DNA from: a virus
IMG/VR virus record: IMGVR_UViG_3300010430_000013
Span: 25,734-89,733 of that record
DNA: 64,000 bases
Strand: one strand, 5' to 3'
In this document: one piece after another, positions 6,807 to 35,221 of the stretch
Numbering within the stretch: the first letter of the stretch is position 1
Layout: each line of letters starts with the position of its first letter
Translations under genes and position numbers: made by a program
Notes under the pieces: generated by a model
Seen by the model: the letters and a program-made list of their open reading frames with translations, nothing else
The model's database searches: none
Told to the model about the DNA's origin: nothing

Positions 6807-7776
6807 ATTCGAAACTCTAGAGAAAAAAGAGTTGTTCGCAATTGACGCTCTTGTAGATCACTTGTCTCAAAATGTGCATGATGCGGTAGCCGACAATGTC
6901 GCTCCGTACGAACAGCACATGTATTCAGAAGACGCTATTCATTTTCCCGGAGCTGGCTATGGAAAAATGTGTACGGCTGGATTTCCTCAGTTTTGCTTTG
7001 GCGATGACTGGTGGGATGAAAACTTCTTCTTGGCTGAGTATGACTTTACGGGAGTTAACTACGGCCCCAAAAGCGGCACAGTAGTAGCACCGGATATTGT
7101 ACTGTCCGCCGAGCACCACGGTAATCTAACCAGCACCAGTTCTCCATTGCCTGATTATTTGTATTTTTATGACCAAGATGGAGTGGAATATCAAAGATCT
7201 ATCGTAGGTCATATGTATGTTCCGGGCTCTGGTGACTTGAGAGTTAATAAGCTTGACTCACCGCTGCCCGCTGAAATCAAGGTTTACAGCTTGCCTGACC
7301 CAGATTTTCATGCTGATGATTATAGATTAGCTAATGCAGTTTACATGGATCAAGACGACAATGTATATATTGGCAAGTTGGCCAATTATACTCCAGCAGA
7401 CGTATCAGACGTTAATGATCAGTACCAGAGATTAATTAAAGATACCGTCCCTTATGTAGACGAATGGGAAGGTGCAGTAGGAGGAGACTCTAGCCATCCA
7501 ACCTTTATCCTCAATGGAAACGGCGAACTGGTTCTGGCATCAGTTATGCACAAGGGACCGTCTCCAGCGGGTCCAGACCTTGGGGACCCTGTGGTTCAAG
7601 CAAATCTGCAATCTGCTATGGCTACTTTGGGTTCTACATATTCCCTACAAACTGTTGAATGGGGAGTTCCTGCTGATTGGGAGGCTCCAGCACCCGCGTC
7701 TGTTGATGCTATATTTGCATCCTTTGAAGAAGTGGGAGGAAGACGAACGCGAACTGTTAGACAGACTTGGTCTTAA
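6796..7776 (+). CDS. Trypsin-like serine protease with planctomycete-type N-terminus
   Basis: The chymotrypsin-fold triad can be traced: His in DIVLSAEHHG (about residue 106), Asp in GDLRVNKL, and Ser in GGDSSHPTF (about residue 231), followed by NGELVLASV. The motif is GDSS rather than GDSGG. The first residues, KIKFETLEKKELFAIDALV, resemble the LEPR-XLL-like signature at the start of many exported planctomycete proteins. Likely secreted or surface-bound and folded with help from the adjacent thioredoxin lipoprotein; this partnership is inference. The start lies inside the thioredoxin gene. Confidence 0.75.
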   Translation: MKIKFETLEKKELFAIDALVDHLSQNVHDAVADNVAPYEQHMYSEDAIHFPGAGYGKMCTAGFPQFCFGDDWWDENFFLAEYDFTGVNYGPKSGTVVAPDIVLSAEHHGNLTSTSSPLPDYLYFYDQDGVEYQRSIVGHMYVPGSGDLRVNKLDSPLPAEIKVYSLPDPDFHADDYRLANAVYMDQDDNVYIGKLANYTPADVSDVNDQYQRLIKDTVPYVDEWEGAVGGDSSHPTFILNGNGELVLASVMHKGPSPAGPDLGDPVVQANLQSAMATLGSTYSLQTVEWGVPADWEAPAPASVDAIFASFEEVGGRRTRTVRQTWS

Positions 7777-7778
7777 TA

Positions 7779-8189
7779 ATGATTAAAAGCTACAAAAAAC
7801 GAAAAATAGATTTAACTTCAAAGGTGCAGGTTTATAAAAATTTACACAAAGATTGTTACTCAATAAGACAAAACGGCCTGGTGGTAGGGCATGCCGACAA
7901 GGTAGTCCTGTGGGGATGCGCTTTCAAAGTAAGCAAAATGGGTGTCCAAAAGATACGGAAAGAAAAAAAGAAATCCGTAATTGCTTACGTGGAAGGAAAT
8001 ATTTCTCCATGTCGTAGGCCAATAACCAGGGTCTTTGAGCAGAATCTTGAAAATGAAAAAATTTCATCAGACTTCACCTTTAATCCCTATAAAAACGAGG
8101 AGTTTATATGCACCAAGACACAAACCCCACTGAAGACGGCAGCGTATTGTCTCTTGGATTCCAAGAGAAGAAAGGTCGTCCTTTGGTAA
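7779..8189 (+). CDS. Conserved phage protein of unknown function (136 aa)
   Basis: The chosen ATG follows an in-frame TTG by 12 bases. The sequence (SYKKRKIDL, VQVYKNLHKDCYSIRQNGLVVGHADKVVLWGC) resembles a small conserved protein I have seen in several large phages, with no known function. Its last 82 bases overlap the next gene in another frame, which is long for this genome. A frameshift near the end is therefore possible. Confidence 0.6.
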   Translation: MIKSYKKRKIDLTSKVQVYKNLHKDCYSIRQNGLVVGHADKVVLWGCAFKVSKMGVQKIRKEKKKSVIAYVEGNISPCRRPITRVFEQNLENEKISSDFTFNPYKNEEFICTKTQTPLKTAAYCLLDSKRRKVVLW

Positions 8190-10785: not shown

Positions 10786-13782
10786 ATGGAAAACAATCTT
10801 CCCACCCCTTACCAAGAGTTCATTCATCTTTCACGTTACGCTCGATGGCTTCCAGAAGAAAAAAGACGAGAGACTTGGGAAGAAACGGTTGATAGATTAG
10901 TTAACTTCTTTGAAGAGCACCTTAAGGAAAACTTTGACTTTGAGTTAGGCAAGGCAAAAAACCGCCTCCGCAAAGGAATCTTGAATCTTCAGGTTGTTCC
11001 AAGCATGAGGGCGCTTTGGGCTGCTGGTCCCGCTGCATCACGCGATAATGTGGCATGTTACAACTGTTCAGCTTTGCCTATCGACAAGCCCGCATCTTTT
11101 GATGAATTATTTTATATTTTAATGAATGGCTGTGGCGTCGGATTCTCAGTTGAACGACAGTTTATCAACAAGCTTCCTGAGGTGTCTGATAGCTTCCATG
11201 AGTCCGATACAACCATCGTGGTGAGTGATAGCACCATCGGCTGGTGCAAGGCGTTAAAAGAGCTTATAGGCATGCTCTACGTGGGGCAGGTTCCAAGATG
11301 GGATCTATCGAAGATTCGCCCTGCCGGAACTCCACTTAAAACCAAAGGCGGTCGAGCTTCTGGTGGCGAAATTCTCGGTCAACTGTTTGACTTTGTTGTA
11401 GTTACCTTTAAGGGTGCATCGGGCCGAAAGCTAAACTCTCTTGAGTGTCACGATATCTGCTGCAAAATTGCTGAAATCGTAACCGTCGGAGGTTGTCGCC
11501 GTTCAGCTTTGCTGAGTTTGTCCAATTTGTCAGATTTACGCATGAGAGAAGCAAAAGTTGGGCGTTGGTGGGAAGAAAGCGCTCAACGTGCAATGGCAAA
11601 CAACAGTGTGGCTTACACAGAAAAGCCAGATATGGGCATCTTTATGGAAGAATGGAAGTCCCTCTATGACAGTAAATCTGGCGAGAGAGGTATCTTTAAT
11701 CGGGAGTCTTGCAAAAAAATTATCGAAAAGATTGGTCGCAGGGATACTGATTTTGAGTTTTTAACTAATCCGTGTGTCACATCTGATACATGGATTGATA
11801 CTTCCGAAGGTCCGATTCAAGCATTCAATCTGATCAACAAGCCATTTCTGGCAACAGTAAATGGAAAAAATTATGAATGTAAAACAGGTTTCTTTAAAAC
11901 GGGACATAAAGATGTTTACGAAATCGAAACCTCTCGCGGATACTCAATTAAATGCACCTCTGACCACAAAATCTTAACAATTAAAGAAGGTCAAGAGCTT
12001 TGGGTTGAGGCGCAACATCTAGACGAGAGTTCAAATATCTGTATTAATCAGCTTGTTCATCAGGATGATTACGATTTGGATTTGAATGAATTTCATCAAG
12101 GTTGGCTAATGGGGGAAGTAGCTGGAGACGGCGGTCACAATCCTGAAAAATATCCTTCGTATGTCAGATTCTGGGGACATAATCGACATCAAATGTCGTC
12201 TATGGCTCACGATTTCGTTAAAGATTTGCCTTATGATTCGCACAGGCCAACAGCGCTTGCTGATGATCCCACTGACAACGGAACTTATAGTCAATCGGCC
12301 AGCAGAGCGCTTGACGAGCTACTGGAGGGCATGCTTGAGCCAGAAACCAAGAATATCCTGCCAGCCCTAGAGGGGGCGTCAGACTCTACTGTGAGAGGCT
12401 TCTTGAGGGGCATTTTTGATGCTGATGGAACCGTGCTTTTTAATAAAGAGAAGGGGCGCTCAGTAAGGCTTGGTCAGAACAATTTAGACCGACTTAAGTC
12501 AGTTCAGAGAATGCTGCATCGTTTTGGTATTGAGTCTTCGGTTTATCAAAATCGAAAACCTGAAGGTTATTACGAAATGCCTGACGGAAAAGGAGGTAAT
12601 AAAGAATACTTCTGTAAGGCTATGCATGAACTGGCTATCTCTCGTGAAAACATTTGCAAGTTTGCAGAATTAATTAATTTTTATGATGCTGACAAAAAAA
12701 CAAAACTAACTGAGTGCATTGATTCGTTAAGTCGAACTCCGTATAAAGACAAAATGACCACGAATTTCGTGTCTCGTCGTCATATCGGTCAGCAAGACGT
12801 TTATGATTGCACAGTGGATGAAGTGCATCGGTTTGGAGCGAATGGAATTATTATTCATAATTGTAGCGAAATATTACTCAGACCTCGTGGATTCTGTAAC
12901 CTCTCAGAAGTAATCCTTAGGGAGGATGATACAGAAGAAACAATCCTTGAAAAGATTGAACTAGCAACAATTCTTGGAACCATCCAAAGCACCTTTACTA
13001 ATTTTCGCTATCTTAGCAAAAACTGGAAGAAGAACGCAGACGAAGAGCGACTGCTTGGTGTTTCGATGACTGGAATTATGGACTGTCCTCTTACGAATGA
13101 TTCCGTAGAAGGTCTTGAAGGAAGGTTAGAGAGATTCAAAGAAAGGGCCATTGAAGTAAATAAAAAATGGGCAAAGTCTATTGGTATTAATCAGTCTGCT
13201 GCTATTACCTGCGTTAAACCGTCAGGCAATACTTCACAGCTTTGCGACACTGCAAGTGGAATTCATACTCGTCACTCTCCTTACTACATCAGAACGGTTA
13301 GGTCTGACAAAAAAGACCCGCTAACCAAACTAATGATTGATAAGGGGTTTCCATATGAGGACGAAATTAACAATCCTCAAAATATTGCAGTGTTTAGTTT
13401 TCCAATTAAAGCTCCTGAGCAATCGTTTTTTAGAAATGATAAGACCGCTCTTGAGCAGCTAGAGCTTTGGAAGAAGTATCAGTTGCATTACTGTGAGCAT
13501 AAGCCATCTATTACGGTTTCGGTAAAAGAAGACGAATGGCTTGAGGTTGGTGCCTGGGTTTATAAAAACTTTGATTTGATGAGCGGCGTTTCTTTCTTGC
13601 CGTTCAGTGATCATGTCTATAAGCAAGCGCCTTATCAGGATTGCACTAAAGAACAATACGAAGAGCTTTTGGCAAAGATGCCGAAAACTATTGACTGGTC
13701 TGAACTATCTGCTTACGAGTCCTCGGATATGACTACCGGAGCACGAGAATTAGCATGTACTGCTGGAGGCTGCGAAATTTGA
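10786..13782 (+). CDS. nrdJ: Class II (adenosylcobalamin-dependent) ribonucleotide reductase, monomeric type, with intein
   Basis: The product reduces ribonucleotides to deoxyribonucleotides with a B12 radical and supplies DNA precursors. Family landmarks are CYNCSALPID with GCGVGFSVE in the N-terminal part, NPC/SEILL with CNLSEV around the thiyl-radical cysteine, VKPSGNTSQL, and the C-terminal redox pair CTAGGC just before the end. Residues 330-692 are an intein. Without it the enzyme is 635 aa, somewhat shorter than the roughly 740-residue Lactobacillus enzyme. The position of the C-terminal CxxxxC fits the monomeric RTPR-like branch. The stop overlaps the next gene's TTG start. Confidence 0.93.
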   Translation: MENNLPTPYQEFIHLSRYARWLPEEKRRETWEETVDRLVNFFEEHLKENFDFELGKAKNRLRKGILNLQVVPSMRALWAAGPAASRDNVACYNCSALPIDKPASFDELFYILMNGCGVGFSVERQFINKLPEVSDSFHESDTTIVVSDSTIGWCKALKELIGMLYVGQVPRWDLSKIRPAGTPLKTKGGRASGGEILGQLFDFVVVTFKGASGRKLNSLECHDICCKIAEIVTVGGCRRSALLSLSNLSDLRMREAKVGRWWEESAQRAMANNSVAYTEKPDMGIFMEEWKSLYDSKSGERGIFNRESCKKIIEKIGRRDTDFEFLTNPCVTSDTWIDTSEGPIQAFNLINKPFLATVNGKNYECKTGFFKTGHKDVYEIETSRGYSIKCTSDHKILTIKEGQELWVEAQHLDESSNICINQLVHQDDYDLDLNEFHQGWLMGEVAGDGGHNPEKYPSYVRFWGHNRHQMSSMAHDFVKDLPYDSHRPTALADDPTDNGTYSQSASRALDELLEGMLEPETKNILPALEGASDSTVRGFLRGIFDADGTVLFNKEKGRSVRLGQNNLDRLKSVQRMLHRFGIESSVYQNRKPEGYYEMPDGKGGNKEYFCKAMHELAISRENICKFAELINFYDADKKTKLTECIDSLSRTPYKDKMTTNFVSRRHIGQQDVYDCTVDEVHRFGANGIIIHNCSEILLRPRGFCNLSEVILREDDTEETILEKIELATILGTIQSTFTNFRYLSKNWKKNADEERLLGVSMTGIMDCPLTNDSVEGLEGRLERFKERAIEVNKKWAKSIGINQSAAITCVKPSGNTSQLCDTASGIHTRHSPYYIRTVRSDKKDPLTKLMIDKGFPYEDEINNPQNIAVFSFPIKAPEQSFFRNDKTALEQLELWKKYQLHYCEHKPSITVSVKEDEWLEVGAWVYKNFDLMSGVSFLPFSDHVYKQAPYQDCTKEQYEELLAKMPKTIDWSELSAYESSDMTTGARELACTAGGCEI
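11773..12861 (+). other. LAGLIDADG intein in nrdJ (363 aa)
   Basis: It begins at Cys330 (CVTSDTWIDTSEGPIQAF, block A), has a TSDHKIL block B histidine, and two LAGLIDADG-type helices (WLMGEVAGDGG near residue 450, FLRGIFDADGTV near 545). It ends VYDCTVDEVHRFGANG and IIIHN followed by Cys693. Both splice-junction cysteines and the terminal His-Asn are present, so splicing should work. The +1 cysteine corresponds to the thiyl-radical cysteine of RNR, a common intein site because it is invariant. Confidence 0.92.
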
Positions 13783-23608: not shown

Positions 23609-25057
23609 TTGCAAAAAGATTTATCGGCAGAAAATGCCATCATTTCCTCTGTATTTAAGGGCGGCGAAGAAATATTTTGGGACCTACAACCAATCATTGT
23701 AGAACCTAGAACTTTTACAAACAATAACAATGGCGTCTTATGGGACATCTATGAGAAGGCTTTCGTAACCCATAAGCAAAAAACGATAGATTTACCTAGT
23801 ATCTTCAGCATTGCAAAAGAACGGGGTCTCGATTCTTGGGTGGGTCGAGACTCTTTTCAAAAGCATCTTGATGACATTGTCGGTTTGCCTTGTGATCCAG
23901 CCAACGCCTTACCTAAGGCTAAAAAAATCAGACGGCTTTATGTCTGTAGAATGGCGCAAGAATGCGTGGCAAACATCGGTAACGACTTGGAAATCGTAAC
24001 CGGCGACGAACCAATTAGTCAAATATTCTCAATTCTAGAGAAGCCGATTTTCGACTTAGCTGGAAAGATTAATTCGGTTGAGCAAGAACCCGTAATGATG
24101 GGTAACGCCGTTGACGAGTATCTAAAAGCTAGAACTGAAAATTCCGGCGAAGACATTGGCGTATCAACTATGTTGCCAATTTATGATTGGGCGCTAGGTG
24201 GTGGCTTACGTCCAGGCGCACTAGACATCATCGCAGCCAGAGCTAAACAGAATAAGTCCTCTTTGGCGATGAACCAAGCAATCCACTTTGCCAAGATGGG
24301 CCTTAAGGTTCTCTATGTAGATACAGAGCTTTCCTTGGATGACCAAATGTCTCGCGTTTTGTCGAGTCAAACCGGCGTAAAGATGCGCAACATTGAGAAT
24401 GGAGCGTATGCCTCAAGCGAGAACGATGCTCGGCTGATTGACAGCGAAGCAGAAGTCCTTAAAGAAATACCTATTTACCATTTAGATGTCAGTCAGGTTC
24501 CGTCATTCGAGGAACAAATCTCAATTATGAATAGGTGGGTTAGAAAAGTCCCAGGAGTAAACTTTGACAATTCTTCTAATCCTTGTGTTGTAATTTATGA
24601 CTATATCAAACTGCTCAATAAAGACCAGCTCAGTAGGAATGTGGCAGAGTATCAACAGATTGGTTATATGGTGAGTCAATTAAAAAACTTTGCGCAAAAA
24701 TATTCCTTGCCGATTCTGGCGTTGGCTCAACTAAATAGAAGCGGAGTTTCAGATCAAACCTCAACATCTCTCAGTCAATCTGATAGAATTCTATGGTTCG
24801 CATCTAGTGTATCCATCCTAGCTAAGAAAACGCCAGAAGAAATCGAATCAGACGGCGCAGAGAACGGAACACACAAACTTTACGTGTCAGATGCCCGACA
24901 CGGCCCAGGAACTCCGTTCGGTTCTCATATTAATCTGGAAATACAACAAGACTCATTCAAGATGAAAGAAGTCGGTATGAACGTTGCAGAAGAAGATGAA
25001 GACGACGGAAAATCCAAAAAGAAAAAGAAAGAAAAAGTAACTGAAATTGATTTCTAA
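23609..25057 (+). CDS. dnaB: DnaB-like replicative helicase
   Basis: Starts at TTG with AAAAAGGG upstream. The N-terminal domain (AENAIISSVFKGGEEIFWDLQPIIVEPRTF) and RecA-like C-terminal domain (GVSTMLPIYDWALGGGLRPGALDIIAARAK) match DnaB. Further motifs are VLYVDTELS, VVIYDYIKLL (Walker B) and ILALAQLNR. The Walker A reads ARAKQNKSS: both glycines of GxxxxGK[ST] are replaced although Lys and Ser remain. The C-terminal tail is acidic then Lys-rich. Hexameric 5'-3' helicase of the replication fork. Confidence 0.88.
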   Translation: MQKDLSAENAIISSVFKGGEEIFWDLQPIIVEPRTFTNNNNGVLWDIYEKAFVTHKQKTIDLPSIFSIAKERGLDSWVGRDSFQKHLDDIVGLPCDPANALPKAKKIRRLYVCRMAQECVANIGNDLEIVTGDEPISQIFSILEKPIFDLAGKINSVEQEPVMMGNAVDEYLKARTENSGEDIGVSTMLPIYDWALGGGLRPGALDIIAARAKQNKSSLAMNQAIHFAKMGLKVLYVDTELSLDDQMSRVLSSQTGVKMRNIENGAYASSENDARLIDSEAEVLKEIPIYHLDVSQVPSFEEQISIMNRWVRKVPGVNFDNSSNPCVVIYDYIKLLNKDQLSRNVAEYQQIGYMVSQLKNFAQKYSLPILALAQLNRSGVSDQTSTSLSQSDRILWFASSVSILAKKTPEEIESDGAENGTHKLYVSDARHGPGTPFGSHINLEIQQDSFKMKEVGMNVAEEDEDDGKSKKKKKEKVTEIDF

Positions 25058-25304
25058 GGTCTTTCTCTCTGAAAATTTAGAACCAAGCACGGTTGTGATT
25101 AAATCAAGACATTGGGATACACATTTGTCTTACTCGGATGTCATCTCTATTGCCTGTTTTAAGCATGACTGTTTGCGTAGTTACATTACGTCTCCTAAGA
25201 CAGAATACGGATTTCTCTTTATCCCTATTGAGTATATAATAATTGGGAAAGAAGTAAAGCTAATAGAATGTGCGGAACCAATTCCTCTGAAGAGATTACC
25301 ATGA
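25047..25304 (+). CDS. Protein of unknown function (85 aa)
   Basis: Strand-rich small protein (STVVIKSRHWDTHLSYSDVISIACF, YGFLFIPIEYIIIG) lying between helicase and primase, overlapping both. Possibly an accessory of the primosome by position only. Confidence 0.55.
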   Translation: MISKVFLSENLEPSTVVIKSRHWDTHLSYSDVISIACFKHDCLRSYITSPKTEYGFLFIPIEYIIIGKEVKLIECAEPIPLKRLP

Positions 25305-26134
25305 GCGAACGCCTCAAAAAACACGGATTTGTCGACAAAGGTGATTATTGGTCTGGACCATGCCCAGTGCACCGAGGAGATAATACTACAGCTTGTACAA
25401 TTTACAAAGACACAAGAATCTGGCGCTGCTGGACCAGACAGTGTCATCGTAATCAAGATGCCCTATGGGAAGCCCTAAAGATCAATAAAGGGTTAATCCA
25501 CACGGACGAACAACTAGAAAAGAAAAAAGTTGATATTAATGATCTTCCTGAACTTATGTCCAAAATGGAGATCAAGAAACGTTTTTGTATTCCAAGTCCG
25601 TTCTTAATTAATCGCGGGTTTAATAGGGATGTATTAAATGAGTTTTACGTTGGGGCTTGTTTCAACGCAAGAGATTTTCTTGTAAATAGGACGGTTGTCC
25701 CAATGTTCTACAATGGTATAATAATAGGGTGGTCGGCACGCGCACATGATCCGAATGCTAAAAGCAAATGGATTCATTCGAAAGGTCTTCCAAGGTCTCA
25801 ATATTTATACAACATGGACTCAATCCAAGATACCGTTATCCTGACAGAAGGCCCGCTAGATTGTTTAAAGCTTCATGAGGCTGGATACACAAGCTGTGCC
25901 GCTATTTTGGGGTCGTCCATTAATAGCGGTCAAGTTAATCTGCTAGAAAGCAAACAAGTTAAAAAAGTCATTCTGCTGTTTGATAACGACGAAGCAGGAA
26001 AGAAAGCTACGGAAGAATCTCTTAAGAAGCTTTCAAAAGTTGAAACTGTAGTTCCTAAGATATCTGGCGCTGATCCCGGTGACATGGGCGCGCAAGAACT
26101 TAAAAAAGAGTTGGAGGGATTTCTAAATGACTAA
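25301..26134 (+). CDS. DnaG-like primase (zinc-binding plus TOPRIM domain)
   Basis: The ATG chosen overlaps the preceding stop (ATGA). The N-terminal zinc-binding domain has CPVHRGDNTTACTIYKDTRIWRCWTRQCH (Cys-His-Cys-Cys). The TOPRIM region has VILTEGPLDCLKLHEAG with its acidic residue and VILLFDNDEAGKKA with the DxD. No C-terminal helicase domain is present, consistent with a separate DnaB. It makes RNA primers. Confidence 0.85.
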   Translation: MSERLKKHGFVDKGDYWSGPCPVHRGDNTTACTIYKDTRIWRCWTRQCHRNQDALWEALKINKGLIHTDEQLEKKKVDINDLPELMSKMEIKKRFCIPSPFLINRGFNRDVLNEFYVGACFNARDFLVNRTVVPMFYNGIIIGWSARAHDPNAKSKWIHSKGLPRSQYLYNMDSIQDTVILTEGPLDCLKLHEAGYTSCAAILGSSINSGQVNLLESKQVKKVILLFDNDEAGKKATEESLKKLSKVETVVPKISGADPGDMGAQELKKELEGFLND

Positions 26135-26891
26135 AATCATCGGTTTCTGCGGGGAGAAGACCTCCGGGAAAAACACTATCGCCAACATATTTACATTAGT
26201 GGCTCTTCAAAGATATAATCTCGGTGAAAACCTACAGATGAATGGATCTACCGGTAAGATCATCATGGACGGAGAGCCTGTTCATCCTAATAGATTAAAT
26301 TCTATGATTGTAAAACAATATGCCTTGGCCGACGCCCTCAAAGAAATCTGCGTTAATGTGTTGGGTTTGGAAGAGCGATGTGTCTATGGGTCTAATGACG
26401 ATAAGGCTGAGTTGACCGATTACTACTGGGAAAACATGCCTGGGGTAATCACCAACAAAAGAGCCTATACTTCAATAGAAAAAATGTTCAAGGAAAACAA
26501 CTGGAGAGAATCATCGTGGCCTTGGCTCTTCCATAAGAAAGGTCAAATGTCAAACCGAGAAGTAATGCAGTTTGTCGGAACGGACATTTTTCGAAAAATG
26601 AACAGCCAAGTTTGGGTAGACTGCACAATCAAAAGAATTGCCCGAGAAAACCCAGAGTATGCCCTAATTACGGATGTTCGCTTTCCAAATGAAACATTGG
26701 CATTTTCCAAAATTGGAACAGTGGTCGGACTTAATAAAAAGTCTGGAGAAGTCGATACCCACGCCAGTGAACAAATTAACATGCAGAACTGTAAATATAT
26801 AGTTAAAAACGAAAACGCTAAAAACGTTCAAGACTTGATTCAGTGTATTTATGAAACCTTCGGAAAGAATAAGGACTTACTAAGCATATGA
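26127..26891 (+). CDS. Deoxynucleoside monophosphate kinase
   Basis: A P-loop GFCGEKTSGKNT at residues 6-17, then ALADALKEICVNVLG, a long insert, VMQFVGTDIFRKMNSQVWVDCTIKRI and ALITDVRFPNE match the T4 gp1-type dNMP kinase family. It would convert dNMPs to dNDPs and complements the RNR and dUTPase. Overlaps primase by 8 bases. Confidence 0.87.
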   Translation: MTKIIGFCGEKTSGKNTIANIFTLVALQRYNLGENLQMNGSTGKIIMDGEPVHPNRLNSMIVKQYALADALKEICVNVLGLEERCVYGSNDDKAELTDYYWENMPGVITNKRAYTSIEKMFKENNWRESSWPWLFHKKGQMSNREVMQFVGTDIFRKMNSQVWVDCTIKRIARENPEYALITDVRFPNETLAFSKIGTVVGLNKKSGEVDTHASEQINMQNCKYIVKNENAKNVQDLIQCIYETFGKNKDLLSI

Positions 26892-27190
26892 GAAACCTAC
26901 TAATTATTTTGACTTTTTGTTTTATTCCGGCAGTAGCTGATGCTCAGATTAGGGCTCCACAGCCTGACCGTTTGCGACAGCCTGAATGTAGAAATGTCGA
27001 CCGACTGCACAGCGCAAGAGTTCGAACTTACATTTATAGATATCCTGTTCGACCAACTCGACGCCTAGATGAATACTATCCTGGTTTGCGTCAGCCGTTT
27101 CGACTTCGACGGTATGAGCCAGTTCGACCAGTCTATCCCGTTCTTCCTTTGTACGGGCCAGGACCATTTTATTATCGATATTGGTATTAA
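26888..27190 (+). CDS. Secreted Arg/Pro-rich protein (100 aa)
   Basis: MRNLLIILTFCFIPAVADAQ is a good Sec signal peptide with an A-x-A cleavage site. The mature part is very rich in Arg, Pro and Tyr (RRLDEYYPGLRQPF, VRPVYPVLPLYGPGPFYYRY) and lacks a recognisable fold. Could bind cell-wall or surface polymers. ATGA overlap with the kinase gene. Confidence 0.6.
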   Translation: MRNLLIILTFCFIPAVADAQIRAPQPDRLRQPECRNVDRLHSARVRTYIYRYPVRPTRRLDEYYPGLRQPFRLRRYEPVRPVYPVLPLYGPGPFYYRYWY

Positions 27191-27199
27191 GGAATAATT

Positions 27200-27691
27200 A
27201 TGTGTAGCTCTCGCGTTAAAGTTGAACTTACGGACGACGAAGTTAATCGTGTAAGGGAGATAGCTAGCATTAGAGACAGCAATAAAAAAGGCTTTTCCTC
27301 AACGCGACACTGGACAGGGAAAGAGAGCACGCATTTTGTAGGGCTGCTAGGCGAAATGGCATTCGCTAAATACACAGGGCTCGACTTAGACGATACTAAT
27401 TATCGTTATAAGGGGGATGGAGGCATAGACTTCGCAAAAGATGTAACCTGCCAAGTCAAGACCACCAATTATAAAAATCCATCTATTTTGTGTTTTTACG
27501 ACCATCTGAATGATTTCACGGCGGATTATGCCGTACTTACATACAGGGAATCAAACAACGTTATCTGGCTTTGCGGTTGGATTTCGAGACATGATTTTGA
27601 AATGGCGGCACACATTAGAAATTTCGGCTATGGGGATAGACTCGTAATGCGTGATCATGACCTCGAACCAATGTGGGAAAAAGATGCATAG
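27200..27691 (+). CDS. Probable PD-(D/E)XK nuclease-fold protein (163 aa)
   Basis: The sequence HFVGLLGEMAFAKYTGLDL, then DGGIDFAKDVTCQVKTTNY, has the E...D...QxK arrangement of a minimal restriction-endonuclease-like core. The C-terminal half (YAVLTYRESNNVIWLCGWI) continues the beta sheet. Probable DNA endonuclease; specificity unknown. Overlaps the next nuclease gene by 8 bases. Confidence 0.65.
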   Translation: MCSSRVKVELTDDEVNRVREIASIRDSNKKGFSSTRHWTGKESTHFVGLLGEMAFAKYTGLDLDDTNYRYKGDGGIDFAKDVTCQVKTTNYKNPSILCFYDHLNDFTADYAVLTYRESNNVIWLCGWISRHDFEMAAHIRNFGYGDRLVMRDHDLEPMWEKDA

Positions 27692-28694
27692 AGACAGAAT
27701 TTCGGCTTCAGAAATAGCAAAATTCACAGGATGCGAAATGGATTGGTTCTTGAGTTATGTGCTCAAGTTTTACATGCCTGCGGGAATTGCGGCGACCAGA
27801 GGATCAATTTGTCACTCTTTCTTGGAGACCTGCGCAATCAGCAAGATGCACAGGCAACAAGGTGGAGAATTGCTGGACGACCCAATTTTGGGACCTAAGT
27901 CGGTCGGCTCAGATTACGAGCCAGACAAATGGTTTGATGCTGTGCTTGAGTATTACAAAGTGGAGGATTCACATGTCGATATTACAAACAGCGACATAAA
28001 AAAATGCTGGAAGGGCATCGAAAAGGTCCTTGAGCATGAAATGAGTCCTTACAATCTTTATGAGGTTGTAGCTCCAGAATTATTGATCCACCAAGAAATT
28101 GATCAAGACTGGGCTCTCTTTGAGAAAGACGGTGAGCAGAAACGACTTATGATCAAAGGCTTCGTCGATGCCGTGTTCCGAGACGAAGAAGGAAATTTAA
28201 ATTTTATTGACTACAAGAGTTCATCTAGACTAGAATGTTTTTCGACGGGCAAAACTAAAACCGTGTTAAACATGCACGAGGACCCGCAGTTAGTTTTTTA
28301 CTGGTGGGCCGCTAACAGGATGTTTCCAGAAGATCATGTGATTGGACATATTTGGTTTTTCAATCTGGATACCTTCTGGAGCCTCGGCATAGATGAAAAC
28401 GACGCTCAAGCTTGCTTTGACAAGGTTGGCGAGAGAATTCAAAAAATGAGAGAGTTGAAAGTACCTAAGTGCCGATACGAACTCGATAAGAAGCAATCAT
28501 GGAAATGTAAACGATTTTGTCCGTTCAGCAAAATGGTTCATCCGACGATACAGGTAGACTACAACCCAATGAGACACAGGTTCGACCCAATCGACGGAAA
28601 AGCATGTATCTGCGATACTATTAAGCAGGCTTGTGAACAAAGAGACATTCTGACAGTTGTAGAAAATTGCCAGAATAAAGATTCAAAACGATAA
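27684..28694 (+). CDS. RecB/Cas4-like PD-(D/E)XK exonuclease
   Basis: The N-terminus RISASEIAKFTGCEMDWFLSY is the AddB/Cas4-type entry motif. The catalytic part is KGFVDAVF...LNFIDYKSSS (motif D-Y-K). The end has C...SWKCKRFCPFSK, which with the early Cys resembles the four-Cys iron-sulfur cluster of RecB-type nucleases. Likely a DNA end-resection or processing nuclease feeding recombination. The start follows from the overlap with the preceding gene. Confidence 0.82.
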   Translation: MHRDRISASEIAKFTGCEMDWFLSYVLKFYMPAGIAATRGSICHSFLETCAISKMHRQQGGELLDDPILGPKSVGSDYEPDKWFDAVLEYYKVEDSHVDITNSDIKKCWKGIEKVLEHEMSPYNLYEVVAPELLIHQEIDQDWALFEKDGEQKRLMIKGFVDAVFRDEEGNLNFIDYKSSSRLECFSTGKTKTVLNMHEDPQLVFYWWAANRMFPEDHVIGHIWFFNLDTFWSLGIDENDAQACFDKVGERIQKMRELKVPKCRYELDKKQSWKCKRFCPFSKMVHPTIQVDYNPMRHRFDPIDGKACICDTIKQACEQRDILTVVENCQNKDSKR

Positions 28695-29099: not shown

Positions 29100-29130
29100 G
29101 CCTCCCTCTCGCTTAGAAGGCACTTCGATG

Positions 29131-29164
29131 CGCCTGCGTGCTCGTAGCACGCAGGCGTTTTTTA
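29131..29164 (+). terminator. Strong rho-independent terminator after ssb
   Basis: A perfect 11-bp stem (CGCCTGCGTGC with GCACGCAGGCG), loop TCGTA, then six T. Confidence 0.93.
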
Positions 29165-29181: not shown

Positions 29182-30687
29182 ATGTATCACCCCGGCGTAA
29201 TGACTCACGGCTCTGTTTTGCAAAGTGCAGTACACCCGGAGCATATTCAGGATTTTATCAATAATTCTGACTACTCCATGCTGCCAATCCTTGACTGGAA
29301 TCTTAGTCAGGCTTACCCGTATATAGACTCGACCGAACAACCTGTAATCGGTCTATTGAAAAACTTTACACAAGATAATGTTGAGATAACCTGCGCCCTC
29401 TATGCCCTCAATCGAAAGGGGTTTGGCGAGCTGCTCAGAATATCCAACGGGCTCCCAATTGCGGATAATTGCAAGAATATTGCAGCACTCTCGCCGGAAG
29501 CTTTAAATATCCCGGATCTTGAAGATATTGACCTGCATATCAAGACATTCAATCCTATAGCCCCAGCGCTCGTTCTAAGGGACTCTCAGCTTGATCACCA
29601 TAAGGTACTCATTAACAAAGCAAAAGGCGAATACGACGCGCCTGTGCCCCTAGAAAACGATGTTACCGATTGGTCTTGTTTAGCGCCGCTTTATGAGGCC
29701 GTAGAGAAATACAGTTTGGACAACAATCCTAGGCTTCCTCACTTTCCAACGGGAGACAAAACTGAAGACGAATTTCTCCGCGAACTCTGCGTTAAATCCT
29801 TAAAAGATAAAAATTTAGAGAGTGAAATATACCTTAGCCGTTTAAATTATGAGCTACAGACGTTCGAAAACGCCGGAATGAGTGGTTATTTCCTAATTAT
29901 GTGGGATATTTGCCGCTTTATTCAGGAGAGTGGCTCTATGTTGGGGGCTGGTCGTGGGTCTGCTGCGGGTTGTTTAGCGAGTTATCTGCTGGGCGTTACT
30001 AAAGTTGACCCGATTAAGTACGACCTAATCTTCGAAAGATTCTATAATCCTGACCGAAAGGGCGTACCCGATATCGATTGCGACATTGTGCCGGAATTTA
30101 GACCTAAAGTTATTGATTATTTAAGAGACAAGTATGGTTCCGAGAAAGTTGCACAGCTTTGCACTTACACTACTTTTAAAGGTCGAGGAGCCCTCAAAGA
30201 AACCCTAAAGCAACACGGAATGTCGCACGCAGAGGCAAATAAGGTAACTGAATGCCTTCATGAAGAATCTAAAATTGATCCACAGCTCAAAGACCAGTAT
30301 AATTCATTAGGGACTAAAAGTGTGCTTCTGTACACTTTAATGCATAGTCGAAGACTCGATTTCTGGTGTAAATTTAATAGGAAGACAAGTAAATACACTG
30401 GTAAGTGGGCGGATGCCTTCAAACTGGCAGTTGAGATGGACAGAACTAATATTGCAATTGGCAAACACGCTTCGGCTTTTATTCTGTCAGATAGAAATTT
30501 GCTAGATCAGTGTCCTGTTATACCAGATCCGGCCAACGGGCCTCACCCAGTTTGTGGCTGGGAAATGAATGCGGCAGAAAGATCAGGTTTGGTTAAGTTG
30601 GATTTGTTGGGACTGGACTGCTTGTCTAAATACCAAAGAAGCAGAGAAGTCATATCTAGTAAATCAATCTACTTGGAGGCCATATAA
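29182..30687 (+). CDS. dnaE-N: DNA polymerase III alpha, N-terminal piece
   Basis: Residues about 1-200 are a degenerate PHP-like region without its HxH metal site. The palm domain follows: GAGRGSAAGCLASYLLG near residue 256, GVPDIDCDI near 295 and VKLDLLGLDCLSKY near 471. These carry all three catalytic aspartates of a C-family polymerase. The frame stops at residue 501, just after the third, where other DnaE proteins continue into the fingers. ATG 29182 has TTGGAG upstream and is preferred over longer in-frame starts overlapping ssb. It needs the second piece to be a complete enzyme. Confidence 0.88.
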   Translation: MYHPGVMTHGSVLQSAVHPEHIQDFINNSDYSMLPILDWNLSQAYPYIDSTEQPVIGLLKNFTQDNVEITCALYALNRKGFGELLRISNGLPIADNCKNIAALSPEALNIPDLEDIDLHIKTFNPIAPALVLRDSQLDHHKVLINKAKGEYDAPVPLENDVTDWSCLAPLYEAVEKYSLDNNPRLPHFPTGDKTEDEFLRELCVKSLKDKNLESEIYLSRLNYELQTFENAGMSGYFLIMWDICRFIQESGSMLGAGRGSAAGCLASYLLGVTKVDPIKYDLIFERFYNPDRKGVPDIDCDIVPEFRPKVIDYLRDKYGSEKVAQLCTYTTFKGRGALKETLKQHGMSHAEANKVTECLHEESKIDPQLKDQYNSLGTKSVLLYTLMHSRRLDFWCKFNRKTSKYTGKWADAFKLAVEMDRTNIAIGKHASAFILSDRNLLDQCPVIPDPANGPHPVCGWEMNAAERSGLVKLDLLGLDCLSKYQRSREVISSKSIYLEAI

Positions 30688-30899
30688 TGGCAGATTCTAT
30701 TACATATGGTCAGTTGACGGTTGGCCAGAAATATACTCTCGTTAATGGAGAGGACACAGATACAATTTGGCTTAAAATCAAAACTCAAACAAAAGGCTGC
30801 TGCCGTAATCGAAAGGTTGTGGCGAATGCTCGTAATTCTGTGGATGCTACTAAAACAGCAATCCATAAACCAAGCGATAAGGTCGTGGTTGTCGGTTAA
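30687..30899 (+). CDS. Small protein of unknown function (70 aa)
   Basis: TAATG overlap with dnaE-N and a GGAGG upstream. The product (SITYGQLTVGQKYTLVNGEDTDTIWLKIK) looks like a small beta barrel. A terminator follows, so transcription from the dnaE-N side largely ends here. Confidence 0.6.
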   Translation: MADSITYGQLTVGQKYTLVNGEDTDTIWLKIKTQTKGCCRNRKVVANARNSVDATKTAIHKPSDKVVVVG

Positions 30900-30928
30900 T
30901 CAATAAAAGATAAATTGATTCTTTTTTG

Positions 30929-30968
30929 AACCCGCTGACTGACCTATAGGCTTTTGGCGGGTTTTTTT
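30929..30968 (+). terminator. Rho-independent terminator
   Basis: AACCCGC pairs with GCGGGTT across a 21-base loop that can fold further, followed by seven T. It lies between the two pieces of the polymerase gene. Confidence 0.75.
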
Positions 30969-30990
30969 ACTTCTTAAATAAGGATTTATT

Positions 30991-31194
30991 ATGGCTAGAT
31001 TTGACTGGGTTCCTTTTGGTGAGCAATTCCGATTTGAGGGGGATATGTTCAAAAAGATAGATTTCGATACCGCTGAGAATATGTTCACAGGCGACTTTCA
31101 GCGTTTTGACTCGATGCAGCAAGTAGAGTACGAAGACTACGAAGAAGAAGCGATGGACGTATTCGCGCTTGATGACGATAACTTGGACTGGTAA
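30991..31194 (+). CDS. Acidic small protein (67 aa)
   Basis: N-terminal half MARFDWVPFGEQFRFEGDMFKKIDF, C-terminal half very acidic (YEDYEEEAMDVFALDDDNLDW). The acidic aromatic end could be a clamp- or SSB-like protein-contact tail or a DNA mimic. An ATAAGGATT sequence precedes the start. Confidence 0.55.
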   Translation: MARFDWVPFGEQFRFEGDMFKKIDFDTAENMFTGDFQRFDSMQQVEYEDYEEEAMDVFALDDDNLDW

Positions 31195-31198
31195 TCTT

Positions 31199-31990
31199 AT
31201 GAAGAAAGTATGCGGCAAGTGCAAGACAGAGAAGCTCACGGAGGAGTTTTACAAAAATAAGTCAACGAAAGACGGCTATGCTGGTTGTTGCAAGTCTTGC
31301 CACACGTCATACTTAGACGCATACAAACAAAGAAATATAAAGATACCAGAAGAAAAAACTTGTTATAAATGTAAAAAGACAAAATCCAAAGACTGCTTTA
31401 GTAAAATGAAGCAAGCTAAGGACGGCTTACAGCAATCATGCAAAGAGTGTTGTAAAAAATACAAAGAGTCTCTAAAGAATAGAGAAGATAAAGCTGAATC
31501 AAAAGCATGCCCAAGTTGTAAGGTTCTTTTAAGTTCTTCCGAATTTAATTCTTTTTGTTATAGCGCTGACGGACTTTCTGTCTATTGTAAAGAGTGTACA
31601 AAAAAGAAAAAAACAGAATATCTTCCAGTAAGACGAAAAAGGAAAAAATTTAGATATGATAATGACGTTCAATACAAAATAAAAGACTCCTTAAGAAAAA
31701 GAATTCGCGTTGCCCTTAAAGGTAAAGCAAAATCAAAAGCCACAATAGCTCTTTTGGGGTGCTCCGTAGATTTTTTAAAAACATATCTAGAAAATAAATT
31801 TGAATCTGGAATGACGTGGGAGAATTACGGAATTGATGGTTGGCACATAGATCATATAATTCCTTGTTCTGCATTCGACTTAACTGATCCAGAGCAACAA
31901 GGGCTTTGTTTTCATTACACGAACCTTCAGCCTTTATGGGCTGAGGACAACATTAAAAAAAGCAACTCACTGAATTGGAGAAAAAGATGA
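31199..31990 (+). CDS. HNH homing-type endonuclease with zinc repeats (263 aa)
   Basis: Three N-terminal zinc units share C-x-x-C-K, a Phe, DG and CKxC (CGKCKTEKLTEEFYKNKSTKDG, CYKCKKTKSKDCFSK, CPSCKVLLSSSEF). A basic linker and then the HNH core WHIDHIIPCSAFDL...HYTNLQPLWAEDN follow. This is the layout of free-standing phage HNH homing endonucleases. Its place between two polymerase fragments suggests it took part in the split. ATGA overlap with the exonuclease gene. Confidence 0.87.
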   Translation: MKKVCGKCKTEKLTEEFYKNKSTKDGYAGCCKSCHTSYLDAYKQRNIKIPEEKTCYKCKKTKSKDCFSKMKQAKDGLQQSCKECCKKYKESLKNREDKAESKACPSCKVLLSSSEFNSFCYSADGLSVYCKECTKKKKTEYLPVRRKRKKFRYDNDVQYKIKDSLRKRIRVALKGKAKSKATIALLGCSVDFLKTYLENKFESGMTWENYGIDGWHIDHIIPCSAFDLTDPEQQGLCFHYTNLQPLWAEDNIKKSNSLNWRKR

Positions 31991-32688
31991 TTTTAGTTAC
32001 GGATTTGGAGACAATAGACTTAAATAAAAATAAGGTTTCTCATGAGACTGCAATTCCCGTACAACTTGCGGCCATCCCTCTGGATGAGAATTCTCTGGAG
32101 ATTATCGACGACCCTCTGTGTATGTGGATTAATCCTGGCGAAGAAATACTTAATTCACCGTCCTTTTATCAAGATTACTCAAATGTTTTGGCCTTTCATG
32201 AAAAAGCACAAGGTAAACCAAAAGAGGAACTTGTCGAACTCTGGCGCTCAGGATTGGCCACGAGAGACGCGATGAAAGAATTTAAGGATTACGTTAAGTC
32301 TTATACCAAGGGCTCAAAAAAAGCATATTTTGGAGGTATGAACGTCAGAAATTTCGACATACCTATTCTAGAGCGTTTAATCGACAAAGGCTGGCCCTTT
32401 GCTAAAGTTAAGACTTGGGATATTAGAGACGTTGCCCAAATGTGGTTCGAATATTCTCGCAACCCACCTAAGTTGAACGGTAGAGTCAGCTATAGCTTCG
32501 ACTCTTTGCGTCAATACTTTGATATGAGCACAGAGAATGCTCACGACGCCCTTGTTGACGTTAGGCAAGAAGCAGACCTGCTCAGAAGATTTTTACGACT
32601 TCAGAAGAACCTAATGACTTACGGTTATCAACACAGAGACCAAAAGGCATTTGCTTGGGCTAAAGTTCTTCATGGAGTTAAGTCTTGA
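31987..32688 (+). CDS. DnaQ-like 3'-5' exonuclease (DEDD family)
   Basis: Exo I VTDLETIDL (Asp and Glu), Exo II GGMNVRNFDIPIL (Asp) and Exo III AHDALVDVRQEADL (His and Asp) are all present. With a C-family polymerase encoded on both sides, this is the likely proofreading subunit; RNase T-like activity is the alternative. It is coupled by overlapping codons to an HNH gene at each end. Confidence 0.85.
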   Translation: MILVTDLETIDLNKNKVSHETAIPVQLAAIPLDENSLEIIDDPLCMWINPGEEILNSPSFYQDYSNVLAFHEKAQGKPKEELVELWRSGLATRDAMKEFKDYVKSYTKGSKKAYFGGMNVRNFDIPILERLIDKGWPFAKVKTWDIRDVAQMWFEYSRNPPKLNGRVSYSFDSLRQYFDMSTENAHDALVDVRQEADLLRRFLRLQKNLMTYGYQHRDQKAFAWAKVLHGVKS

Positions 32689-33281
32689 GCTTAGGCGATA
32701 AGATTAAAGCGCTAAGAAATAAAGGATATTCTTACAACGAAATAGCAAAAGAGCTTGGTTGCTCTAAAGGCACTGTTTCGTATCATTGTGGAGAGGGTCA
32801 AAAGGATAAGGCAGAAGCCAGAAGAAAAAAACGAAGGAAAGAAAAGCCTGTCGACAGAAAGGTTGAAAATTTTCATGCTGAGAGAACATCATCCTTTGAA
32901 CAATCTATTGTTAGAAATAATAACGAAAGAATTTCAGGGAAGATAGCGCTTTTTCATAGTTGTGGGAGTAGAATGAAAACTAAATATACACCAAGAACCT
33001 TCAGCGTGAGCGAAGCAAAAGAACTACTAGAAGAACGAGGAGTTTGTTATTTGACTGGAGATCCAATCGACCCAGAAGACAGTCAATCTTATCATTTTGA
33101 TCACATTAAGCCAAGGTCCGCAGGGGGAGAAAATACAATCGATAATTTAGGAATTTCTTCACCAGAGGCTAATTATGCCAAGGGAAGCATGGAATTTGAG
33201 GACTTCATAAAAATGTGTCATAAAATAGTGAAGAGATATCCTGATCCAGAAGACCCAAGACCAAAACACGAAAGGGGCTGA
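32685..33281 (+). CDS. HNH endonuclease with N-terminal HTH (198 aa)
   Basis: It starts at a TTG overlapping the preceding TGA. The N-terminal helix-turn-helix is KGYSYNEIAKELGCSKGTVSYHC, then a very basic linker. The HNH core is GVCYLTGDPIDPEDSQSYHFDHIKPRSAGGENTIDNLG...AN. This is a homing-type or mobile endonuclease unrelated in layout to the 31199 one. Its stop overlaps the start of the structured RNA. Confidence 0.82.
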   Translation: MSLGDKIKALRNKGYSYNEIAKELGCSKGTVSYHCGEGQKDKAEARRKKRRKEKPVDRKVENFHAERTSSFEQSIVRNNNERISGKIALFHSCGSRMKTKYTPRTFSVSEAKELLEERGVCYLTGDPIDPEDSQSYHFDHIKPRSAGGENTIDNLGISSPEANYAKGSMEFEDFIKMCHKIVKRYPDPEDPRPKHERG

Positions 33282-33410
33282 AATAGTTTCGATTCGAAGT
33301 CAAGTGATGCGTCTGCCGTGGGAGGCAAAAAGGTCTAACTGCACTAGCAAAAAAGCCTTGGCGTTATCAGCAGCTTTTGAAGACCTCGGGGCAGGACCGA
33401 GCAGCTCCAC
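33274..33410 (+). ncRNA. tmRNA-like structured RNA (about 137 nt)
   Basis: The 5' end GGGGCTGAAATAGTTTCGA is close to the conserved tmRNA start (GGGGCTG, spacer, TTCGA). The 3' end CAGCTCC-A pairs with GGGGCTG as a 7-bp acceptor-like stem. It is directly preceded by a 5-bp T-arm-like hairpin (CTCGG, 7-base loop, CCGAG). GGTCT (33332) and AGACC (33381) enclose an internal segment whose reading frame contains AKKALALSAAF-like residues, reminiscent of a tag. A T-run follows. Against a normal tmRNA: it is very short, the T-loop is not TTCRA, and no tag stop fits. It could be a reduced tmRNA or another tRNA-like RNA. Confidence 0.45.
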
Positions 33411-33429
33411 TTTTTTCAAAGGAGAAGCA

Positions 33430-33633
33430 ATGGGTGAATTTTTTGTAGAGGCCATTTTTGGCATGATAGTGTCTGCGGTTATTGTAACCGCGCTTGTTGT
33501 GGGAGGAGTTACGTTTGCCGTGACTTGGTATTTCAGTCAACCTCCTTCAGAAGCTCAAGTCTTAAAAGAAGGGCAACGACAACAAGTTATCGAAAAACTT
33601 ACACCTGAAGAACGAGAATTGCTGGGCGTTTAA
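33430..33633 (+). CDS. Single-pass membrane protein (67 aa)
   Basis: I use the ATG with AAAGGAGAA upstream rather than a longer frame that would read through the structured RNA. A hydrophobic segment (FGMIVSAVIVTALVVGGVTFAVTWYF) at residues 9-34 is followed by a charged tail (EAQVLKEGQRQQVIEKLTPEERELLGV). Function unknown. Confidence 0.65.
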   Translation: MGEFFVEAIFGMIVSAVIVTALVVGGVTFAVTWYFSQPPSEAQVLKEGQRQQVIEKLTPEERELLGV

Positions 33634-33634
33634 T

Positions 33635-35221
33635 ATGATTTTTGATTGTGGGTGCGAATTTCACCAAACAGAAGACGGCGGCTGGACTTGGGACGACGAG
33701 AATATTAATTTTCAATGTCCAAAAGTTTGGAGGTTAATTTGTTCTGGCAATACGTCTGGCGTCTTTCAGCTGGACGCTATGCTGGGTCAACATTGGTCCA
33801 GGCAGGTCAAGCCAGAAAACATTAATGAATGGTCTGATCTTATTGCTATTATCCGTCCTGGTATGCTGGAAGCTATCGTGGACGGAAAGAGCCAGACTCA
33901 GCGCTATGTTGACAGAAAACACGGCAAAGAGAGTGTCGCGTTCGACCATCCAAAGCTAGAGGAGGTTCTAGGACCAACTCAAGCTACCATGCCGTTTCAA
34001 GAGCAAGCCATGAGAATCGCCACAGACTTGGCGGGGTTCACAATGGCCGAGTCGGATACTTACATTCGCAAGGGTATCGGCAAGAAGATTCCTGAGGTGA
34101 TTGCCAAAGCCAAGGAAATGTTCATCGAGGGATGCCTCAAGAATAATATCTCCAAAGAATTAGCCGAAAGAATCTTTACGTCTATCGAGGCTGCACAGCG
34201 ATATTCGTTCAATAGGTCACACAGTCTTAGTTACGCTCTGGATGGTTATATTTATTCAGCATATATCAAAGCGCATTTTCCGCTGGAGTTTCATTGCACA
34301 GAATTAGACTTTGCTAAGGGCAAGCAGCCTAAGACTGACCTTGAGGCCGTCTGTGACATCATCGAGGATGCCCTAAAGATGGACATCAAGGTTATGAAAC
34401 CCGACCTTAGATATTTAAATGAAAGATTTTCTATAGTTGACGGCACCATCCTTTACGGCTTAACTAAGATAAAGCATCTCGGTCCCGATAAAATTCGAGC
34501 ACTTCCAGAGCTGAAAGACGCTACTTACATAGAGCTTATCGCTGCCTTAGACAAAATAAACAAAACTTCCGCAGAAAACTTAATCAAAAGCGGGTCTTGT
34601 GATTGGATCAAAGCGCCTCGTTCTAAAATGTTGGCAGACTATGCGGCTTACTCCAAGCTAAATGTGCAGCAAAAAGAAGTTTGTGTAGAAGAATCTGACG
34701 TTCTTAAGGGAATTCAAAAAATTATAGAAATTGGGCCGTCCACCAAGAGCAAGCTGTGCTATAATAAAGTGTCGCTAAAAAAATTAAAGGAACTTGAGAA
34801 TCTCCTCGTGAATCCAATCCGACAGCCAAAAGACACCCCTCAAAAGATTATTGACTGGGAAAAGGAAACACTTGGGCGCTCATTTACTTTTGATGAGGCT
34901 TTGACTCGTTATTGGGATGGGAATTACAAAGAGTTGATTGATGTTAAGCATCATTCTGTCCCCCTAAAAGATCAATTCCTGTTGAGCGCGGTTCTCAGGG
35001 ACTTTAAAGAAATTTACACCAAGAAAAAACAAGAACCTATGGCTCGAATAACTGTTTACAGTTTAGATTGGGTCAGTGATGCGGTTATATTTCCTAGGGC
35101 TTGGGAATTGTGCAAGCATGCGATTGAATCTAATGTCGGCCAGCCGCTTTTATTCAAAGCCAGAATGAATTTCTACAACGAGCAATGGGGCCTAGTAATC
35201 GAGGAGATAGAAGATGTCTAG
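33635..35221 (+). CDS. dnaE-C: DNA polymerase III alpha, C-terminal piece
   Basis: It takes up the polymerase where dnaE-N ends: CPKVWRLICSGNTSGVFQLDAM, IIRPGMLEAI, the fingers segment YIRKGIGKKIPEVI and YSFNRSHSLSYALDGYIYSAYIKAHFP are all DnaE signatures. The later part has a helix-hairpin-helix (YGLTKIKHLGPDKI) and an OB-like C-terminal region. About 30 N-terminal residues (FDCGCEFHQTEDGGWTWD) have no clear match. Together the pieces give 1029 aa, near normal DnaE length. No intein residues flank the break. Confidence 0.87.
   Translation: MIFDCGCEFHQTEDGGWTWDDENINFQCPKVWRLICSGNTSGVFQLDAMLGQHWSRQVKPENINEWSDLIAIIRPGMLEAIVDGKSQTQRYVDRKHGKESVAFDHPKLEEVLGPTQATMPFQEQAMRIATDLAGFTMAESDTYIRKGIGKKIPEVIAKAKEMFIEGCLKNNISKELAERIFTSIEAAQRYSFNRSHSLSYALDGYIYSAYIKAHFPLEFHCTELDFAKGKQPKTDLEAVCDIIEDALKMDIKVMKPDLRYLNERFSIVDGTILYGLTKIKHLGPDKIRALPELKDATYIELIAALDKINKTSAENLIKSGSCDWIKAPRSKMLADYAAYSKLNVQQKEVCVEESDVLKGIQKIIEIGPSTKSKLCYNKVSLKKLKELENLLVNPIRQPKDTPQKIIDWEKETLGRSFTFDEALTRYWDGNYKELIDVKHHSVPLKDQFLLSAVLRDFKEIYTKKKQEPMARITVYSLDWVSDAVIFPRAWELCKHAIESNVGQPLLFKARMNFYNEQWGLVIEEIEDV

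Follow-up and report, generated by a model that had tools for sequence, protein, structure and literature searches.

Cyanobacterial DnaE, the alpha subunit of DNA polymerase III (Pol III), is encoded by two genes, broken at a different site from the one described below, and its two parts are rejoined by protein trans-splicing through a split intein. In group 2.2 jumbo phages, a split minimal Pol III alpha is encoded as two standalone proteins that are thought to reconstitute the enzyme (PMC7824862, 2021). The split polymerase of Aeromonas phage 25, gp43A and gp43B, co-purifies and is active, and the split NrdA of phage Aeh1 is likewise active (PMC2988022). Here, we analysed a Pol III alpha encoded by two genes, dnaE-N and dnaE-C, with a DnaQ-like exonuclease gene and further genes between them, in a 64,000-nucleotide stretch of viral DNA (positions 25,734 to 89,733 of IMG/VR virus record IMGVR_UViG_3300010430_000013, a record of 89,733 bases), hereafter called the window. 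The split is shared by a large clade of uncultivated phages. Very probably, it represents an ancestral, working two-subunit Pol III alpha whose single-origin split has been kept since, and the HNH endonuclease genes now lying between the two halves are later cargo.

Like cyanobacterial DnaE, the polymerase of this clade is encoded by two genes, but it carries no intein. It resembles the jumbo phage enzyme in that the catalytic module of Pol III alpha is provided as two phage proteins. The jumbo phage enzyme, however, is a minimal version encoded by distant genes, is cut between the nucleoside triphosphate-binding and Mg-binding parts, and is accompanied by a family B polymerase (PMC7824862), whereas in the clade a near full-length alpha is encoded in one gene block with dnaQ between the halves, the break separates palm from fingers and leaves every metal ligand in the N-terminal protein, and neither a family A nor a family B polymerase was found in 20 records. 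With split gene 43 (43A/43B of Aeromonas phages 25 and 44RR) and Aeh1 nrdA, the locus shares adjacent genes, a presumed assembly without splicing and an endonuclease that may intervene. Those genes encode a family B polymerase or a ribonucleotide reductase of T4-like phages (PMC2988022), whereas here the split gene is that of a family C polymerase, the phages sharing it form a diverse clade, and the gene conserved in the gap encodes a proofreading enzyme.

Two complementary Pol III alpha genes

dnaE-N (29182..30687, plus strand) encodes a 501-amino-acid (aa) protein (P0001) with a degenerate PHP domain, palm and thumb, and dnaE-C (33635..35221, plus strand) encodes a 528-aa protein (P0002) with fingers, HhH and OB domains behind an N-terminal extension bearing a CGC motif. 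The two are separate open reading frames (ORFs), as a preliminary description of the window had stated, and their database matches are complementary. In Pfam, dnaE-N matched DNA_pol3_alpha (PF07733, 1.6e-62), and dnaE-C matched DNA_pol3_finger (PF17657, 7.4e-35) and HHH_6 (PF14579, 1.1e-9); in PHROG, dnaE-N covered positions 313-615 and dnaE-C positions 619-1054 of phrog_405. Sequence matches in PDB extended up to Taq residue 641 for dnaE-N and began at residue 640 for dnaE-C. AlphaFold (AF2) models were generated for each protein alone, as single chains. The dnaE-N model (predicted local distance difference test score, pLDDT, 77) aligned with residues 6-582 of E. coli DnaE (5fkv, Z 19.9) and 7-640 of the Taq enzyme (2hpi, Z 25.7), and the dnaE-C model (pLDDT 84) aligned with E. 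coli residues 572-1073 (5fku, Z 20.6) and Taq residues 632-1121 (2hpi, Z 20.5). Together, the two proteins span Pol III alpha with nothing lost, and the break corresponds to approximately residues 572-582 of E. coli DnaE, at the palm-to-fingers transition.

The palm hallmarks of family C DnaE-type polymerases (PDxDxD, the third Asp motif and GRGS) are present in dnaE-N, and the family C fingers, HhH and OB domains in dnaE-C. The catalytic residues D297, D299 and D474 (E. coli D401, D403 and D555) all lie within dnaE-N, in agreement with the preliminary description; its stop codon follows D474 by 27 residues, and 41 residues precede the GVFQL motif in dnaE-C. A single polypeptide, which is usual though not strictly defining for DnaE, was replaced by two ORFs in all 46 distinct loci described below. 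The locus recurs with an identical layout in a second contig (IMGVR_UViG_3300027820_000066), which differs by 2 mismatches in 17.5 kb (99.99% identity). An assembly error was considered and is unlikely, given this twin contig and 45 further distinct contigs with the split.

The N-terminal extension of dnaE-C (window 33635-33720) is predicted to be ordered and contains CGC and a third Cys shortly before WxLI. This CGC...C extension is conserved in dnaE-C of 15 of the 46 distinct loci, most others being without that Cys, and is possibly a metal site or a docking element.

A clade of phages with the same break

When IMG/VR was scanned with N, C or DnaQ as single proteins, only the twin contig and intact DnaEs of about 33% identity were returned. 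The N scans yielded approximately 100 phage loci that carry dnaE as one ORF, at 30-35% identity. On these relatives alone, the split would have the look of a lone fracture, and the idea of a break by homing endonucleases would have gone unchallenged. Split relatives were revealed by a scan with the helicase gene rather than by the polymerase scans, and the clade was then gathered by IMG/VR profile scans with dnaE-C and DnaQ; dnaE-C aligned jointly with intact relatives was too divergent for scanning. In total, 93 split loci from uncultivated phages were obtained, reduced to 46 distinct loci by shared 5-mers. The data are metagenomic and many of the records are fragments.

The gene order of the clade is uvsX - helicase - primase - dNMP kinase - exonuclease - dnaE-N - dnaQ - dnaE-C, and N, dnaQ and C are separate ORFs in that order at all 93 loci. 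Among 80 loci recovered with the DnaQ profile, 77 were split and none had a fused dnaE; the other three were unscored, as N and C were not both on the stretch. dnaE-N ends 12-24 residues past the third-Asp motif, (K/T)xDxLG, in every one of the 46 distinct loci. The distance from the N stop to the C reading frame has a median of 0.9 kb, accommodating dnaQ and at most one small ORF; it is 1.05 kb or less in 33 of the 46 loci and ranges from 0.66 to 5.6 kb across the clade, being longest in L143. At L124, the gap holds just a 62-aa ORF and dnaQ, and dnaE-C begins a few bases past the dnaQ stop. Gaps of 0.66-0.95 kb, too small for an endonuclease, include those of the near-basal L124 and L131. 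dnaE-C has its own ATG in all 24 members examined for it, and several of these overlap the dnaQ stop by 4 nucleotides.

Two trees were constructed, the first from 39 split polymerases, 29 intact ones and 2 other split polymerases, and the second with contigs from metagenome-assembled genome (MAG) bins and L223 added. The split polymerases fell on one side of a branch with Shimodaira-Hasegawa-like approximate likelihood ratio (SH-aLRT) support of 99 in tree 1 and 100 in tree 2, and neither tree placed an intact dnaE inside the split clade; the split thus has one origin in the clade. Long branches near the clade base lead to the window phage and L131. L223 comes from a Lokiarchaeota bin, and such bins may contain stray phage contigs; it is basal and is split at the same site. 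In place of dnaQ, its gap (6808-7972) has two unrelated genes, for a macro-domain-like protein and a 246-aa protein. The split therefore predates the HNH genes or is independent of them, and it may have been there before dnaQ moved into the gap. In an intact clade that is sister to the split one in tree 1 but not in tree 2, most members tested have dnaQ at or near the upstream end of a dnaE without PHP, and a dnaQ rearrangement is a possible origin of the split. L026, L028 and L029 were considered as related splits and rejected, as their interruption lies within the fingers.

Gene content of the gap

All features of the gap in the window are on the plus strand. dnaE-N is followed by ORF70 (30687..30899), encoding a small protein; relatives often carry small ORFs at this place, which are not homologous to it by profile. 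A likeness between ORF70 and the small ORF of L124 (36% in a MAFFT alignment) was dropped as homology, as BLASTP gave no match and a profile of 34 clade ORFs failed on ORF70. An intrinsic terminator follows (30928..30968; -17.2 kcal/mol versus -7.0 for shuffled sequences, z -4.9, then a T run). The preliminary description placed two terminator-type or RNA structures in the gap; this one was confirmed there, but the other strong terminator (29130-29158) is upstream of dnaE-N and outside the gap. ORF67 (30991..31194), encoding a small acidic protein, matched no family in PHROG or Pfam scans. HNH1 (31199..31990), a CxxC-rich protein with a C-terminal HNH (phrog_1035 endonuclease VII, 1.6e-31), is not present in most relatives' gaps. 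The conserved gap occupant, dnaQ (31987..32688), encodes a DEDDh 3'-5' exonuclease (phrog_192, 3.2e-13) with the RNase_T fold signature DxE, D and HxxxxD (Pfam RNase_T, 7e-5, just below the cut-off); residues D6, E8, D124, H186 and D191 are conserved with the L124 DnaQ. HNH2 (32685..33281) is an HTH and HNH endonuclease (phrog_6050, 1.2e-25; Pfam HTH_38 and HNH_4), and the last gene, a 67-aa ORF (33430..33633), encodes a small membrane-anchored protein with a hydrophobic stretch and no family match. Upstream of the polymerase, the replication block of DnaB-like helicase, primase, dNMP kinase and exonuclease (23609..28694, plus strand) is syntenic in the clade.

HNH1 and HNH2 are mutually unrelated and, within the clade sample, flank dnaQ in the window phage only. 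Other members carry FkbM- and TylF-type methyltransferases, a glycosyltransferase, endonuclease VII (L170 and L207) or a non-specific endonuclease (L134) in the gap. The gap tends to collect cargo, and the HNH genes are later, phage-specific insertions; an endonuclease entering an already split gene, as suggested for Aeromonas phage 25 (PMC2988022), is the course of events supported here.

Several further observations were made on these genomes. In the window, the ribonucleotide reductase gene (10786-13782, 998 aa) contains an in-frame intein-like insert (CVTSDTWIDTSEGP ... GANGIIIHNCSEI), so the window phage does hold another homing-type element. In L134-L136 (3110-9302), both halves of the split dnaE are further interrupted, and the first insert resembles the ribonucleotide reductase intein of the window. 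The exonuclease beside the split dnaE in L124 (13094-15010) has an apparent intein-like insert, with two separate matches in one 638-aa ORF. G002 (206 kb, the L163 record) and G003 (221 kb, the L167 record) contain two Pol III alpha palm loci each, approximately 146 kb apart, meaning either that one phage has two split polymerases or that genomes were joined. A protein encoded at window 6796-7776 begins with MKIKFETLEKKELFAID, similar to the LEPRxLL-type N-terminus often seen on proteins that planctomycetes secrete, which gives a weak hint of a planctomycete host.

Assembly, origin and competing explanations

Residues D297, D299, D474, G255 and R258-S260 were invariant in 25 of 25 members, and the fingers signature residues in C were invariant across 25 members. 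The ratio of nonsynonymous to synonymous substitution rates (dN/dS) for N and C in pairs of close relatives was approximately 0.01-0.14, which is to be read as an order of magnitude only, several dS values being near saturation; in the relatives, purifying selection on each half is strong. Family A and B polymerases (PF00136 included) were found in none of 20 clade records, in all of which PF07733 was detected, and control genomes were positive for each family. Because of the conserved residues, the selection, the lack of another polymerase in these records and the precedent of split gp43 and NrdA, we infer that N and C assemble, and the simplest reading is that together they are the replicative polymerase of the clade phages. 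The preliminary description is right that, to function, the two proteins would have to come together. Polymerase activity and a place for DnaQ in the complex are likewise presumed.

The proposed course of events is one ancestral split at the palm/fingers boundary, in a forebear of this clade, that has been kept since. One protein would bring the PHP-like domain, palm and thumb, and its partner would add fingers, HhH and OB domains. A single replication gene block, in which the gene for the DnaQ proofreading exonuclease lies between theirs, would give rise to both; they would be translated separately and would join non-covalently into an active polymerase. The variable gap would have received the short membrane ORF and both HNH genes later. 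It is conceivable, if on balance improbable, that palm, DnaQ and fingers, separate and made in that order, constitute a three-part core replicase in which DnaQ or a CGC...C metal site helps to hold the halves together. If true, this would be a core polymerase architecture not described before.

Broken dnaE genes of other kinds were also encountered. In Rossellomorea phage phiT1 (PV767480), Pol III alpha (gp20/gp18) is broken in the same palm/fingers linker, but only a 49-aa ORF lies between the pieces, with neither endonuclease nor dnaQ, and the protein groups with intact phage DnaEs; apparently, this is an independent split at the same place. Bacillus phage KLEB27-3 (OM634661) has dnaE as two ORFs with an HNH gene between them, but the break falls within the fingers, at GLFQIE, and is of a sort that could result from an intron-type insertion; there is no dnaQ. 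In Bacillus phage Jayan, dnaE is broken before PDIDTD. In L030 (8380-9430), a LAGLIDADG-type ORF interrupts a phage dnaE at PDxDxD, and beyond this ORF the motif recurs in altered form. In L242 (5092-7884, a Clostridiales MAG), the interruption of a chromosomal dnaE lies beside the third catalytic Asp and consists of a gene for an HNH-containing reverse transcriptase/maturase of group II intron type.

In the preliminary description, the fracture was put down to the HNH endonucleases, and dnaQ was seen as caught between the pieces. A recent fracture of an intact dnaE, with dnaQ carried in or trapped, would fit the two HNH genes flanking dnaQ in the window, the intact dnaE of many phages, the T4-type precedents (PMC2988022) and the endonuclease-associated break of KLEB27-3, albeit at a different site. 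However, the same linker is broken, with dnaQ and without an endonuclease, in relatives across a monophyletic clade, and the extra gap genes vary between members, making this proposal very unlikely. An endonuclease-fractured gene is marked by a break at the endonuclease insertion and by intact close relatives, a combination that was not found here: the intact dnaE for which the preliminary description suggested looking exists in the approximately 100 distant loci but in none within the split clade. Relatives with an ancestral two-gene form and no endonucleases, which that description named as evidence against its own proposal, are what the clade provides, with dnaQ in the gap. An older event, in which an ancestral endonuclease made the break and was lost before the present HNH genes re-invaded a split gene, is possible but doubtful. 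Nucleases do recur in the gap (those of the window, L170, L207 and L134), and in the parallel case of gene 43 in Aeromonas phage 25 an endonuclease may have entered an already split gene (PMC2988022), but no trace of a common ancestral endonuclease was found in the gap, the gap genes of basal L223 are unrelated, and the dnaQ directly upstream of the PHP-less dnaE in the tree-1 sister clade makes a dnaQ rearrangement an equally good origin.

Rejoining of the pieces, either by splicing of an RNA intron that holds dnaQ or by protein trans-splicing through a split intein, has candidate parallels in intron- or intein-type interruptions of phage dnaE (L030 and L113) and in the intein-like insert of the phage's own ribonucleotide reductase. 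Nevertheless, Rfam detected no intron or other RNA family in the gap, either at the gathering score or at E values up to 1, and Pfam and PHROG scans of N, C and the gap proteins detected no intein (HINT) domain, as the preliminary description had noted for the break. Moreover, every member examined has a stop in N and its own start codon in C, and the gap varies in both length and gene content, so that we give rejoining almost no credence. That N and C are decaying relics in a phage using the host replicase could be suspected from the PHP domain of the window, which is truncated; with invariant catalytic and fingers residues, dN/dS values of relatives that are well under 1 for N and for C, and a gene order conserved in 46 distinct loci, decay is highly improbable.

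Several points weigh against an ancestral, working two-subunit polymerase as set out above. The window phage has a branch of 1.7-1.9 changes per site, leaving its exact placement in the clade unsure, and its PHP domain is degenerate. The L223 gap is without dnaQ, which shows that the arrangement can do without it. As many records are fragmentary, another polymerase could be missing from the data, and the terminator in the gap could uncouple N from dnaQ and C.

Distribution and significance

Among 50,697 phage records, no isolate was found with the palm-dnaQ-fingers arrangement. The best-ranked matches in these records were at 37% identity for a clade C protein (L153) and 30% for a clade N protein (L209), and the L153 DnaQ had no match. 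A search of the open-access literature, preprints excluded, found no report of the arrangement. The gene order can serve as a marker for a phage group without a cultured member in the collection searched.

The clade also gives reason for caution in reading fractured phage genes, as nuclease genes within a gap need not have made the gap. Bacterial-type replicases are treated as having single-chain catalytic subunits, yet a diverse phage clade keeps Pol III alpha in two. This suggests that two chains can form the active site and go on doing so over long spans of evolution, and the clade offers natural material for studying the assembly of palm and fingers and the coupling of proofreading to synthesis.

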